Positions 15,869-19,839 of a stretch of DNA of 49,988 nt are shown here, in pieces. Location: positions 1 through 49,988 of the forward strand of contig RZZM01000003.1 in assembly GCA_009929845.1 (NCBI GenBank), given 5' to 3'. The number at the start of each line of letters is the position of its first letter. Positions within the stretch are counted from its first letter, which is position 1. The DNA comes from Spartobacteria bacterium (GTDB lineage: Bacteria > Verrucomicrobiota > Kiritimatiellia > RZYC01). The notes beneath the pieces are model-generated. The model saw only the letters and a list, made by a program, of their open reading frames with translations. It did not search any database and was not told the DNA's origin. Position numbers and translations under genes: made by a program.

Positions 15869-17173
15869 TCAGACCTCCAGCCCCATCCGCGGGATGCGAA
15901 GGCGCTGGCGCGCGTTTTCTCCCTTGAGGAGGTTTTCTCGGCGTGCCGGGGGAACATCGCGATCGGTTTTCGGGCCCTGTTCCAGGAAAAGCGAGCTGCC
16001 GACATGGACCGTATGTTTTCCGTATTGCTGGTTGATTTGATCCACTACACGCGCGGCCCGCGCCAGGCGCTCGATACGCAAGCGGTCCTCAAAAAGCTCC
16101 ATCTGCGTACAGCGGTCTTCTTCCAGTCCGGTCAACACCACCATGGTGGTCCGGTAAAGATCGCCCGGCGCCAACAGGCGTTCAAAGAGGTCACGCACAA
16201 TCGGCAAGACCTCCTGCGTGGACGCGGTGGGACGGTTCAGGCGGGCTTCGAGGGCGTCCTGCCGGTAGTCCTGCCAGCGCAGGACCACCACAAGTTTGCG
16301 GGCGCGCAGCTTGTAGCGTCGCATCTTAATAAAGGCGGATTCCACATTGCGCACGAGTTTGGCGTAAATGAAATCGGGGTCCGAGGAGGGTGAGGTAAAG
16401 GTTTTGCCCTTGCTGATTGAGGCGTAGGTTTTCTTTTCATCGGGATCGACCGGATGGATGAGGTGTCCGCGCAACTCATGCCACAGCTCGTCCCCCACCT
16501 TGCCCATCATTTTTTTCACCCACGCCTCGGGCCGCTGAATGAAGTCATACGGGGTATTGACCCCATGCTTGCGCAGCATAGAGGCGCTGTTGGGGCCGAT
16601 GCCCCAGACCTGGTCGATGGTATGCCGCTGCAGGAAGAGTTCCACATGCGCGCCGCCCACCGCGGTGAACCCCAGGGGCTTGCGGAATTTGGACGCCAGT
16701 TTGGCCAGGCCCTTGGAGAGGCCCAGGCCCACCGAGACCCCGAGGTCCAGCTCTTCGCAAATCTCCCGCTGAATGCGCCTCGCTATATCCGGATAGGACA
16801 TGTGGTGCAGACGGCGGAGGCCGGTGAGGTCCGCGAACCCCTCATCAATGGAATACTCCTCCACCATGGGGGTGTAGCGTCGCGCGATCTCGAACATGCG
16901 CTTGGAATAGATGCTGTAGGTCTCGTAGTCGCTGGGCAGCACTACCAGCTCCGGGCACATCTTGCGCGCCTCCCACAGCGACACCCCGCGCTTAATCCCG
17001 AGCGCCTTGGCCTCGTAACTGGCACACGCGATGATGCCCCGTTCCTTGCCGGTGACCACCGGACGCCCCTTGAGCTCCGGATGCACCGACTGCTCGACCG
17101 ACGTAAAGAACGCGTCGCCGTCAAAATGCATCACCGCGTTGGGATAGGACGAATGGAACATTAATTTTTGCAT
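15869..17173 (-). CDS. Y-family DNA polymerase (DinB/UmuC superfamily)
   Basis: 434 aa from ATG 17173; the longer ORF would run into the lexA-like gene. Template-directed translesion DNA synthesis is the family role. The palm motifs are intact: HFDGDAFFTSVEQ near residues 16-28 (metal-binding Asp18) and YSIDEGFADLTG near 107-118 (Asp110/Glu111, the SIDE motif). The thumb helix-hairpin-helix region (VWGIGPNSASMLRKHGV) and a little-finger domain follow. Residues about 365-434 hold a TQMELFE segment, a short clamp-binding-like stretch, and a tail ending RLRIPRMGLEV. The gene starts 32 nt after the LexA/UmuD-like gene and has no strong ribosome site of its own, so expression should follow the LexA-box promoter. 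The cassette is UmuDC-like, but DinB-like sequence features make the subfamily uncertain, so no symbol is given. Confidence 0.88.
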   Translation of the reverse strand: MQKLMFHSSYPNAVMHFDGDAFFTSVEQSVHPELKGRPVVTGKERGIIACASYEAKALGIKRGVSLWEARKMCPELVVLPSDYETYSIYSKRMFEIARRYTPMVEEYSIDEGFADLTGLRRLHHMSYPDIARRIQREICEELDLGVSVGLGLSKGLAKLASKFRKPLGFTAVGGAHVELFLQRHTIDQVWGIGPNSASMLRKHGVNTPYDFIQRPEAWVKKMMGKVGDELWHELRGHLIHPVDPDEKKTYASISKGKTFTSPSSDPDFIYAKLVRNVESAFIKMRRYKLRARKLVVVLRWQDYRQDALEARLNRPTASTQEVLPIVRDLFERLLAPGDLYRTTMVVLTGLEEDRCTQMELFEDRLRIERLARAARVVDQINQQYGKHTVHVGSSLFLEQGPKTDRDVPPARRENLLKGENARQRLRIPRMGLEV

Positions 17174-17205: not shown

Positions 17206-17793
17206 CTACCGATACTTGCGAATCACACTGCGTACGACGCCGCCGATTGAGCAGGACTGCTGCGGGCGGATGCGCTGGTAGTTTTTGTTGGCCGGGTCCA
17301 GGAAGACGCCCTGGCGGTCCCGCCCGAAAAATTTGAGGGTCCACTCGCCGTCCACCTGCGCCACCACCACGTCATTCCGGCGGGGGGTCACCCCCTTTTC
17401 CACCAGCACGATGTCCCCCGGCTGGATCCCCGCCTCAATCATCGAATCACCCGTCACCGTCAGCATAAAGGTCGCCTCGGGCCGCTCGACCAGGAATTCA
17501 TCCAGGCTCAATGTATCCACCAGTTCCTCTTCCGCCGGCGAGGGAAACCCGGCCTGCACCGCGCCCAGCAACCGGATGGAGCCGATCAATTTGCTGGCAG
17601 GCGCTATTTTCCCATCCCGGCTTTTGGACAGGTAGCCATACATCTCCAGGCGTTTGAGCAGCCCGTACACCGCGTTTTTGGAGCGATAGTTAAACAGCTC
17701 CAACATCTCCCCATAGCCCGGCATACGATGCTCCCTGCGCACAAAATCACGCAAACACCCAACCTTTTCCGCCAAATTTGTTTTTCGGGGCAT
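17206..17793 (-). CDS. LexA/UmuD-like S24 repressor-peptidase
   Basis: 195 aa from ATG 17793, with GGAGG 5 nt upstream. Residues 1-65 form a winged helix-turn-helix (VGCLRDFVRREHRMPGYGEM...SKNAVYGLLKRLE) as in LexA. From about residue 75 comes an S24 autopeptidase: cleavage pair Ala81-Gly82 (VQAGFPSP), Ser117 in GDSM and Lys154 in WTLKFF, all present. The linker after the cleavage site (GFPSPAEEE) and 'SMIEAGIQPGDIVLVEKG' are more like UmuD than classical LexA. The gene precedes the Y-family polymerase by 32 nt. Expected behaviour, by family knowledge: RecA-stimulated self-cleavage after DNA damage, relieving repression of this promoter and perhaps releasing a UmuD'-like fragment. It could be the genome's main LexA or a dedicated second copy. 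Confidence 0.85.
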   Translation of the reverse strand: MPRKTNLAEKVGCLRDFVRREHRMPGYGEMLELFNYRSKNAVYGLLKRLEMYGYLSKSRDGKIAPASKLIGSIRLLGAVQAGFPSPAEEELVDTLSLDEFLVERPEATFMLTVTGDSMIEAGIQPGDIVLVEKGVTPRRNDVVVAQVDGEWTLKFFGRDRQGVFLDPANKNYQRIRPQQSCSIGGVVRSVIRKYR

Positions 17794-17798
17794 AGCTG

Positions 17799-17803
17799 CC
17801 TCC
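17799..17803 (-). promoter_or_regulatory. Ribosome binding site deciding the lexA-like start
   Basis: Minus strand GGAGG, 5 nt before ATG 17793. It favours this start over the 20-codon longer ORF. Confidence 0.8.
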
Positions 17804-17862: not shown

Positions 17863-17891
17863 AACATAACTGAACTATCGTTCACTTTCAA
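17863..17891 (-). promoter_or_regulatory. Promoter of the lexA-like/polymerase cassette
   Basis: Minus strand TTGAAA (-35, 17886-17891), a 17-bp spacer and TATGTT (-10, 17863-17868), about 70 bp upstream of the lexA-like ATG. Spacing is ideal for a housekeeping sigma-70 promoter, and the spacer contains the LexA box. Confidence 0.75.
17872..17883. promoter_or_regulatory. LexA box GAAC-N4-GTTC
   Basis: GAACTATCGTTC is a perfect inverted repeat, extended by one base each side to TGAAC-N4-GTTCA. It sits between the -35 and -10 of the promoter driving the LexA/UmuD-like gene, so a bound repressor would block RNA polymerase. This is the half-site arrangement known from Firmicutes LexA (DinR) boxes, not the CTGT-N8-ACAG type of gamma-proteobacteria. 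Confidence 0.8.
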
Positions 17892-18021
17892 GAAAAAAGC
17901 GCCCAATAATTAATTTTTCGGATTTTTTGCCAGAACATCGATCGCCCGCTTATCAGCCGCCGCCCCCCCCTTGGGGCCGCGCGGTATTCATGGCCGACGG
18001 CAAGGAAGGTGGGAAACAGAA

Positions 18022-19839
18022 TCAATATTCCTCAATGCCCCGTTTTTTCAGGCGTTTGCGGGCGACTTCGGAGAGGTAGAATTTGCGCAGGCGGATATTC
18101 TCGGGGGTTACTTCGACAAGTTCATCATCCGCGATATATTCGAGCGCTTCTTCGAGGCTCATTTTCCTGGCCGGGGTGATTTTCAGGGCCCGGTCCGAGC
18201 CGGAGGCGCGGACGTTGGTCAACTGTTTACCCTTCTGAACGTTCACGATAAGGTCGTTGTCCTTGCAGTTTTCCGCCACAATCATGCCCTCGTAGGCCAG
18301 TTCGCCGGGGTCGACAAAGAAGCTTCCGCGCTGTTGAAGCGCGTCGATGGCGTAGGCGGAGGTCTTTCCCTGGTCCATGCTGATGAGCACACCGTTGATG
18401 CGCTGCGGGATTTCGCCGCGGAACGGGCCATATTTGAGAAAGCGGTGGGCAATAATGGCTTCGCCGGCGGTGGCGGTGGTCAGGCGGGTACGCAGGCCGA
18501 TAAGCCCACGGGTCGTGATATGGAACTCCAGCAACTGCCGGTTGCCGCGTTTTTCCATGTGGATCATCTCGCCTTTGCGCAGTCCGACCAGCTCAATGAC
18601 CTTGCCGGCGGTGTCCGCCAGGGTATCCACCGCCAGGATTTCAATCGGCTCCTGTTTGACGCCGTCGATCTCCTTGAAAATCACATGCGGCTGGGAGACC
18701 GTCATTTCGTACCCTTCGCGGCGCATATTTTCGATTAAGATGGCCAGATGGAGCACGCCGCGCCCGCTGACCTTGAAGGCATCGCCTGTGATCTCCTCGA
18801 CCCGCAGGGCCACGTCCCGCTGGATCTCCTTAAACAGGCGCTCACGCAGATGGCGGCTGCTGGAAAACTTTGCTTCCTTGCCGAAGAAGGGGGAATCATT
18901 CACGCGGAAGATCATGGAAATAGTGGGCTCGTCAATTTTGATGGCCGGCATCGCTTCGGGATGTTCCACATCACAGATGGTATCGCCGATATCGACATTT
19001 TCGATCCCGACCACGGCGCACAGCTCCCCGCAGGGAACGGACACTTGCTCTTTTCGTTCGAGGCCCTCAAATGTCAGCAACTGCTTGATCTGCGTGAGGC
19101 GTTCTTTCCCGTTCTGCTTGAGTACGATAAACGAATCGCGGGTGTTGAGCGTACCGCGGTAGACGCGGCCGATGCCGATACGCCCGACATAATCGGAATA
19201 ATCCAGTGTGGCCACCTGCATCTGGACCGGCCCCTCCCGCATAACAGGCGCGGGGATATGTTCAATGATAGCGTCCAGCAACGGCAGAATCGAATCACGT
19301 TTACCGTCAAGCTGCTTATCAGCCCAACCGTCCTTTCCGCTCGCATACAACATCGGGAAATCAAGCTGTTCATCGGAGGCGTTCAACTCGACAAACAGGT
19401 CAAAGACCTTGTCATGCACCTCGTCGGGGCGGGCCATCGGCTTATCGATCTTGTTGATGATAACAATCGGCTTGAGATGGAGTTGAAGGGCCTTGTCGAG
19501 CACAAAGCGGGTTTGGGGCATCGGCCCTTCGGCGGCATCCACCAGCAGCAGGACTCCGTCCGCCAGGTTCAGGACGCGCTCGACCTGGCCGCCAAAATCA
19601 CTATGGCCGGGCGTATCGATTACGTTGATTTTTACATCCTTGTAATAGACACTGATATTCTTGGAGAGAATGGTAATACCGCGCTCGCGCTCCAGATCAT
19701 TACTATCCAGAAAGCATTCCTGGATTTGATCGACATTCCGGAACAGATGAATCTGTTTAAGGATTTCATCCACCAGGGTTGTTTTACCATGGTCCACATG
19801 GGCAATAATGGCGATATTGCGTATTGCATTCGTATTCAT
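18022..19839 (-). CDS. typA: Ribosome-associated translational GTPase TypA/BipA
   Basis: 605 aa, the usual family length. The N-terminus has the G1 motif AHVDHGKTT (residues 13-21), the effector [23 protein letters not shown] (G3) and NKIDKP (G4). EF-G-like domains II, III and V follow, then the TypA-specific C-terminal domain ([21 protein letters not shown].....). TypA binds 70S ribosomes and assists ribosome assembly and stress adaptation. Start ATG 19839 has only a weak GAG upstream. It lies just beyond the terminator that ends the ribosomal supercluster, so it needs readthrough or its own promoter. No convincing promoter was found in the 37-nt gap. Confidence 0.96.

Follow-up and report, generated by a model that had tools for sequence, protein, structure and literature searches.

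Layout of the predicted repressor-polymerase operon and its promoter

The window, the whole stretch of 49,988 nucleotides that was analysed, carries on its minus strand a gene for a predicted repressor of 195 aa (17206..17793) which consists of a predicted LexA-like winged helix-turn-helix (HTH; residues ~7-65) and a UmuD-like S24 peptidase (residues 75-187). The gene is followed, 32 nt past its stop codon and on the same strand, by a gene for a Y-family DNA polymerase of ~434 aa with IMS and IMS_C domains (15869..17173, the ATG at 17173 and the stop at 15869). Upstream of both genes, the minus strand from 17891 to 17863 reads TTGAAA-GTGAACGATAGTTCAGT-TATGTT, a -35 element (17886..17891) and a -10 element (17863..17868) separated by a spacer of 17 nt and surrounding the palindrome TGAACGATAGTTCA. 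The predicted operator, TGAAC-GATA-GTTCA with perfect 5-bp arms (17871..17884, minus strand), thus lies inside the spacer, and the preliminary description of a GAAC-N4-GTTC box within a TTGAAA-17-TATGTT promoter is confirmed, the palindrome being conserved in most orthologues. The repressor start at 17793 sits ~70 nt past the box behind a GGAGG ribosome-binding site (17799..17803, minus strand) and is likely the right one, being favoured because the ATG of a 215-aa form (17853) falls roughly at the expected transcription start.

The bare 8-base core GAAC-N4-GTTC is unremarkable in the window (2 matches, 0.82 expected), the 10-base TGAAC-N4-GTTCA occurs once where 0.03 matches are expected, and the box together with the promoter elements occurs once against 0.00 expected. 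Across the 5.64-Mb assembly the promoter-framed box has a single match, the site at 17863-17891, and the reversed control pattern has none. Upstream on the minus strand the neighbouring gene is typA (18022-19839), which in turn follows a ribosomal protein/rpoA cluster. No intrinsic terminator was detected between typA and the box (17884-18022); the damage operon follows typA directly on the same strand, and read-through could affect its basal expression.

The polymerase ends in a QMELF clamp-type motif and a match to the UmuC-type DUF4113 tail that is below threshold. Among NCBIfam models its body scores 240 bits for DinB and 129 for UmuC, all below cut-off, and the operon's polymerase differs in type from the DinB of the same genome.

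Conservation and variation of the proposed operator

Judged by its named relatives, the genome belongs in or near Kiritimatiellota. Upstream sequence of sufficient length was available for 79 orthologues in other genomes. Up to 130 bp before the start, the exact TGAAC-N4-GTTCA box precedes 49 of them and the relaxed form GWAC-N4-GTWC precedes 67; the 12 upstream regions without even the relaxed box include many with degenerate palindromes at the right place and others with none. Alignment of 63 sequences on the box yields cTTGaaa-[CG]-TG[A/T]AC-gatc-GT[A/T]CA-[GC]-tTAt, in which the operator lies between -35 and -10, the TTG is kept at the same distance from the box (T 87%, T 81%, G 70%) and the T-A of the -10 element at the same position. 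A search of 116 genomes of the class with the pattern TTG-N4-TGWAC-N4-GTWCA-NN-TA found 32 places (31 distinct sites) in 27 genomes, the reversed control giving 0. Of the 30 distinct sites looked at individually, 26 lie before the repressor or its polymerase and 4 elsewhere. Further members of the repressor family are found in Omnitrophota, Nitrospirota, WOR-3 and candidate-phyla bacteria, and many of these have the same box. One promoter-framed box (L228, genome G403, contig C268:9605-9629) stands before an apparent phage terminase gene pair, recognised by a weak Terminase_6N match, where a prophage may be using the operator of the host repressor.

The arrangement of the two genes varies between genomes, from the operon seen here to a divergent pair sharing one common box (G002) and to genes on different contigs, each with its own box (G001). 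The most telling test is offered by UmuC-like polymerases of the class that are separated from the repressor: of 14 such genes, 11 carry the box at ≤1 mismatch, against 0 of 23 for ordinary DinB (Fisher p 4e-7). Local variants of the operator recur at both genes: two genomes (G385 and G037) have the asymmetric TGTAC-N4-GTTCA at the repressor and at the distant polymerase, and those of family f28 have a right arm of GTTCT or GTTCC type at the repressor and of GTTCT type at the polymerase. Since separated polymerases carry the local operator variant, which is hard to explain otherwise, the same protein is predicted to bind both sites. The earlier proposal of autoregulated control over the S24 repressor and its polymerase is accordingly supported at the level of sequence, with a spacer operator conserved across the class and beyond.

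The arms of the operator differ within this one family, as summarised by the class consensus cTTGaaa-[CG]TG[A/T]AC-N4-GT[A/T]CA[CG]-tTAT. Pontiella and its relatives have TGTAC-N4-GTACA, for example CTGTACGATCGTACAG, which contains the E. coli motif CTGT-N8-ACAG; intermediates carry one TGAAC-type and one TGTAC-type arm, and another branch has AGAAC-N4-GTTCT. TGTAC in one or both arms upstream of the repressor is seen at L037, L043, L047, L048, L050, L052 and L069. The assignment of the box to a Firmicutes type in the preliminary description thus fits its core, GAAC-N4-GTTC, but not the sites of the class as a whole, where relatives have TGTAC-N4-GTACA or AGAAC-N4-GTTCT. The presence of TGAAC, TGTAC and asymmetric sites in one family, within one promoter frame, points to a continuum rather than to simple use of a Firmicutes box. 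Of 7 proteins with Thr41, a residue of the recognition helix, 6 have an A-flanked arm, two A-flanked sites occurring without Thr41; Pro45 goes with TGTAC arms. Single residues as the explanation of the arm change were rejected as not significant, with only ~4 independent operator-arm changes each, and the association of Thr41 with the A-flanked arm is best taken as a lead from sequence comparison.

Reach of the predicted regulon

All 10 exact TGAAC-N4-GTTCA sites of this genome were looked at. Apart from the operon, one further clean intergenic promoter-type site stands before the gene of a DUF134 regulator; another (L010) lies in a stretch without a recognisable target, and the remaining sites fall within open frames or at their ends. 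No box stands before recA or uvrA in this genome, nor before its second dinB; a single dnaE was found and no dnaE2. A broad SOS regulon in this genome was rejected after this survey of exact sites, and the predicted regulon here is essentially this single operon. The site before the DUF134/Nitro_FeMo-Co regulator gene is a perfect ATGAACATATGTTCAT palindrome (L004 1501-1514; G000 contig C328:9122-9135) and probably the regulator's own; TGAAC-N4-GTTCA is thus not unique to SOS repressors, and a DUF134 regulator with a TGAACATATGTTCA box means that the protein bound to such a site cannot be told from the motif by itself.

Judged by the sites found, only one other family of the class, f11, adds recA and umuDC to the predicted regulon. 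Its recA carries the box in 5 of 5 cases (L131, L132, L143, L145 and L154), against 0 of 25 outside f11, and a separate operon of a short UmuD and a polymerase (umuDC) has the box upstream at 6 of 7 loci (L291-L296). These boxes suggest that repressors of this family are able to control a wider set of genes. In f11 the short UmuD has its own Y-family polymerase, the repressor stands apart, and the window-type polymerase was not detected in the f11 genomes checked.

The preliminary description had seen textbook SOS control at the locus and had looked to recA, uvrA and dnaE2 for further boxes; recA and uvrA proved negative and dnaE2 was not found. The textbook label is not supported: in the S24 tree the repressor falls with UmuD, the assembly yielded no canonical LexA, and none of recA, uvrA and the second dinB has the box. 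The combination that had been named as refuting the proposal, a box confined to this one repair locus together with a box not conserved in relatives, does not apply: its first half holds for the repair genes checked here, but conservation is strong.

A probable UmuD-like repressor and its relation to known systems

The peptidase domain reaches the cut-off of the UmuD model PRK10276 (112.4 bits, cut-off 110), whereas the repressor misses that of the canonical LexA model TIGR00498 (107.3 bits, cut-off 110.95), and its best PDB sequence matches are UmuD. The cleavage site Ala81-Gly82 and the Ser117/Lys154 dyad are intact, all four residues being invariant among 38 orthologues. For the DNA-binding domain, the window protein has no Pfam match to LexA_DNA_bind (PF01726); 24 of the 38 orthologues match at E<=0.01, and the orthologue in G001 scores above the cut-off of this LexA-type winged HTH model. 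An AlphaFold model (pLDDT 78, with an uncertain hinge) gives the N-terminal domain helices at 7-21, 27-33 and 39-51 and a two-strand wing; its best PDB match is the LexA-DNA complex 3jso, and UmuD' over the C-terminal domain. A tree of S24 domains puts the repressor family (SH-aLRT 96) together with UmuD and UmuDAb (92) and canonical LexAs on the other side (92), a placement that is supportive rather than final, the tree being a quick one with long branches. The repressor appears to be a LexA-like winged helix joined to a UmuD-like peptidase, not a typical LexA, and to be nearer to the polymerase helper UmuD than to LexA itself; by score, tree and regulon it is not a canonical LexA.

No second LexA-type regulator or canonical LexA was found in the assembly, which is ~91% complete, so that one could be missing, and no separate UmuD was found in it either. 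The sole other S24 domain of the genome lies at the C-terminus of a 1980-aa open frame (L017, G000 contig C444:25242-25622) that also has an MrfA Zn-binding domain, and such a fusion of an S24 peptidase with an MrfA-type protein looks unusual. Canonical LexAs exist as separate proteins in other class members; one such gene (L184, in G296) has ATACTGTACGGATATACAGTAT, an E. coli-like box, upstream. A canonical Verrucomicrobiota LexA gene (L182) has TGTTCTTTGGAACA upstream, not the TGAAC-N4-GTTCA box.

The closest functional parallel comes from Acinetobacter, a genus without LexA, in which UmuDAb combines a UmuD-like self-cleaving peptidase with a DNA-binding domain, adjoins umuC in several species and has a regulon made up largely of error-prone polymerases (PMC4807011, PMC11332147, PMC8565304). 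The window protein resembles it, by its sequence, in the UmuD-like peptidase with an added, predicted DNA-binding domain and in a predicted polymerase-focused regulon. UmuDAb has an N-terminal domain that is not LexA-like by sequence, and it uses a large operator with a 5-bp core and the corepressor DdrR (PMC11332147). The N-terminal domain of the window protein is a predicted winged HTH of LexA type and its putative operator, TGAAC-N4-GTTCA, is compact and lies in the promoter spacer; nor do the two proteins fall into a single clade in the S24 tree, with its long branches. The repressor is thus predicted to work like UmuDAb, yet stands outside the Acinetobacter UmuDAb family. With canonical LexA (TIGR00498) it shares the S24 domain, the Ala-Gly site and the Ser/Lys dyad and, as predicted from sequence and model, a winged HTH and autoregulation via a promoter palindrome; it differs in a peptidase nearer to UmuD, a score below the cut-off and a predicted narrow regulon. 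S24 proteins also focus damage control on error-prone polymerases in the minimal networks of E. coli umuDC and of HdiR, the latter clustering with phage repressors (PMC8565304), although E. coli umuDC, unlike the window system, is repressed by a separate LexA.

Operators of other SOS systems resemble the box in part. The B. subtilis LexA/DinR box has C/G flanks. The Gram-positive box GAAC-N4-GTTC has an identical core and spacing (PMC3323433). The flanks of the box in the window are T/A, and close relatives have TGTAC-N4-GTACA. The neighbouring lineage also offers an SOS palindrome with a 4-bp centre, although the arms differ. For this LexA motif of Verrucomicrobia, Erill et al. in 2016 reportedly gave TGTTC-N4-GAACA.

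A proposed damage switch and what it would mean

Taken together, we consider it highly probable (close to 0.9) that the palindrome serves as operator in a small and self-contained switch by which DNA damage controls the repressor and the polymerase. What the DNA itself provides is the operator, its placement in the promoter, its conservation, the tracking of its variants between the two genes and a cleavage site and catalytic dyad that are intact; binding, RecA-stimulated cleavage and induction we infer from what is known of LexA, UmuD and UmuDAb proteins. The 195-aa protein would dimerise and bind TGAAC-N4-GTTCA between -35 and -10, and the bound dimer would block RNA polymerase, so that little would be made of either the repressor itself or the co-transcribed Y-family polymerase. 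Once DNA is damaged, RecA filaments would provoke self-cleavage at Ala81-Gly82, which would part the DNA-binding domain from the dimerising domain and empty the operator, and repressor and polymerase would then be made until the filaments vanish.

A palindrome arising by chance is ruled out by its conservation upstream of orthologues, which is the decisive evidence that the box is more than chance: although the 8-base core alone would be expected 0.8 times in the window, the 10-base and promoter-framed forms would hardly be expected at all and most orthologues keep the box, leaving this reading a negligible probability. The same palindrome before the DUF134 regulator gene lends some colour to the idea that the box belongs to another regulator and stands at this promoter by coincidence, but the box follows the S24 gene and the polymerase through operon, divergent and separated layouts, and its variants match between the two, so that this idea is very improbable. 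That an ordinary LexA of a Gram-negative lineage has come by a Gram-positive box by happenstance and runs a broad SOS regulon is improbable as well: the LexA-like winged HTH fold of the model, a core equal to the B. subtilis motif (PMC3323433) and the inclusion of recA in f11 would agree with it, whereas the missed LexA cut-off, the grouping with UmuD, the lack of the box at recA, uvrA and the second dinB, with dnaE2 not found in this genome, and the occurrence of canonical LexAs as separate proteins in other class members argue against it.

The small self-contained switch may have a further layer, in which the cleaved UmuD-like C-terminal fragment also joins the polymerase as a UmuD'-type activating subunit, so that one cleavage would switch the gene on and license the enzyme. 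This extension is possible, though we lean against it. It would account for a peptidase that passes the UmuD cut-off, just misses that of LexA and groups with UmuD, for the lack of a separate UmuD in the assembly as found, for the weak resemblance of the polymerase tail to DUF4113, and for f11, where the picture is complementary: a short UmuD exists separately with its own polymerase, the repressor stands apart and the window-type polymerase went undetected in the genomes checked. However, UmuDAb failed to complement an E. coli strain mutated in umuD, and induced mutation was no lower when UmuDAb was lost (PMC4807011), and the polymerase body, nearer to DinB than to UmuC with all scores under cut-off, may need no UmuD.

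No paper naming both LexA and Kiritimatiellota was found in the literature searched, and DNA-damage control in this class appears to be undescribed so far. The family would represent a case of a UmuD-type damage repressor beyond Acinetobacter, across several phyla. Its step from a two-gene regulon to one with recA and umuDC in f11 offers a natural case of minimal networks of different size under orthologous repressors. The graded operators TGAAC/TGAAC, TGTAC/TGAAC, TGTAC/TGTAC and AGAAC/AGAAC, all from a single protein family and set in an unchanging promoter frame, make the change of SOS motifs between lineages testable with a handful of proteins and sites. A broader and rather doubtful proposal is that of a widespread family in which one protein serves as SOS repressor and, after cleavage, as UmuD'-type polymerase subunit, its operator having drifted between TGAAC arms of Gram-positive character and TGTAC arms like those of E. 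coli via asymmetric intermediates. If true, a one-protein damage switch would operate in Kiritimatiellota and Lentisphaerota and also in Omnitrophota, Nitrospirota, WOR-3 and candidate-phyla bacteria, and the asymmetric operator intermediates would survive today in the promoters of both the repressor and the polymerase.
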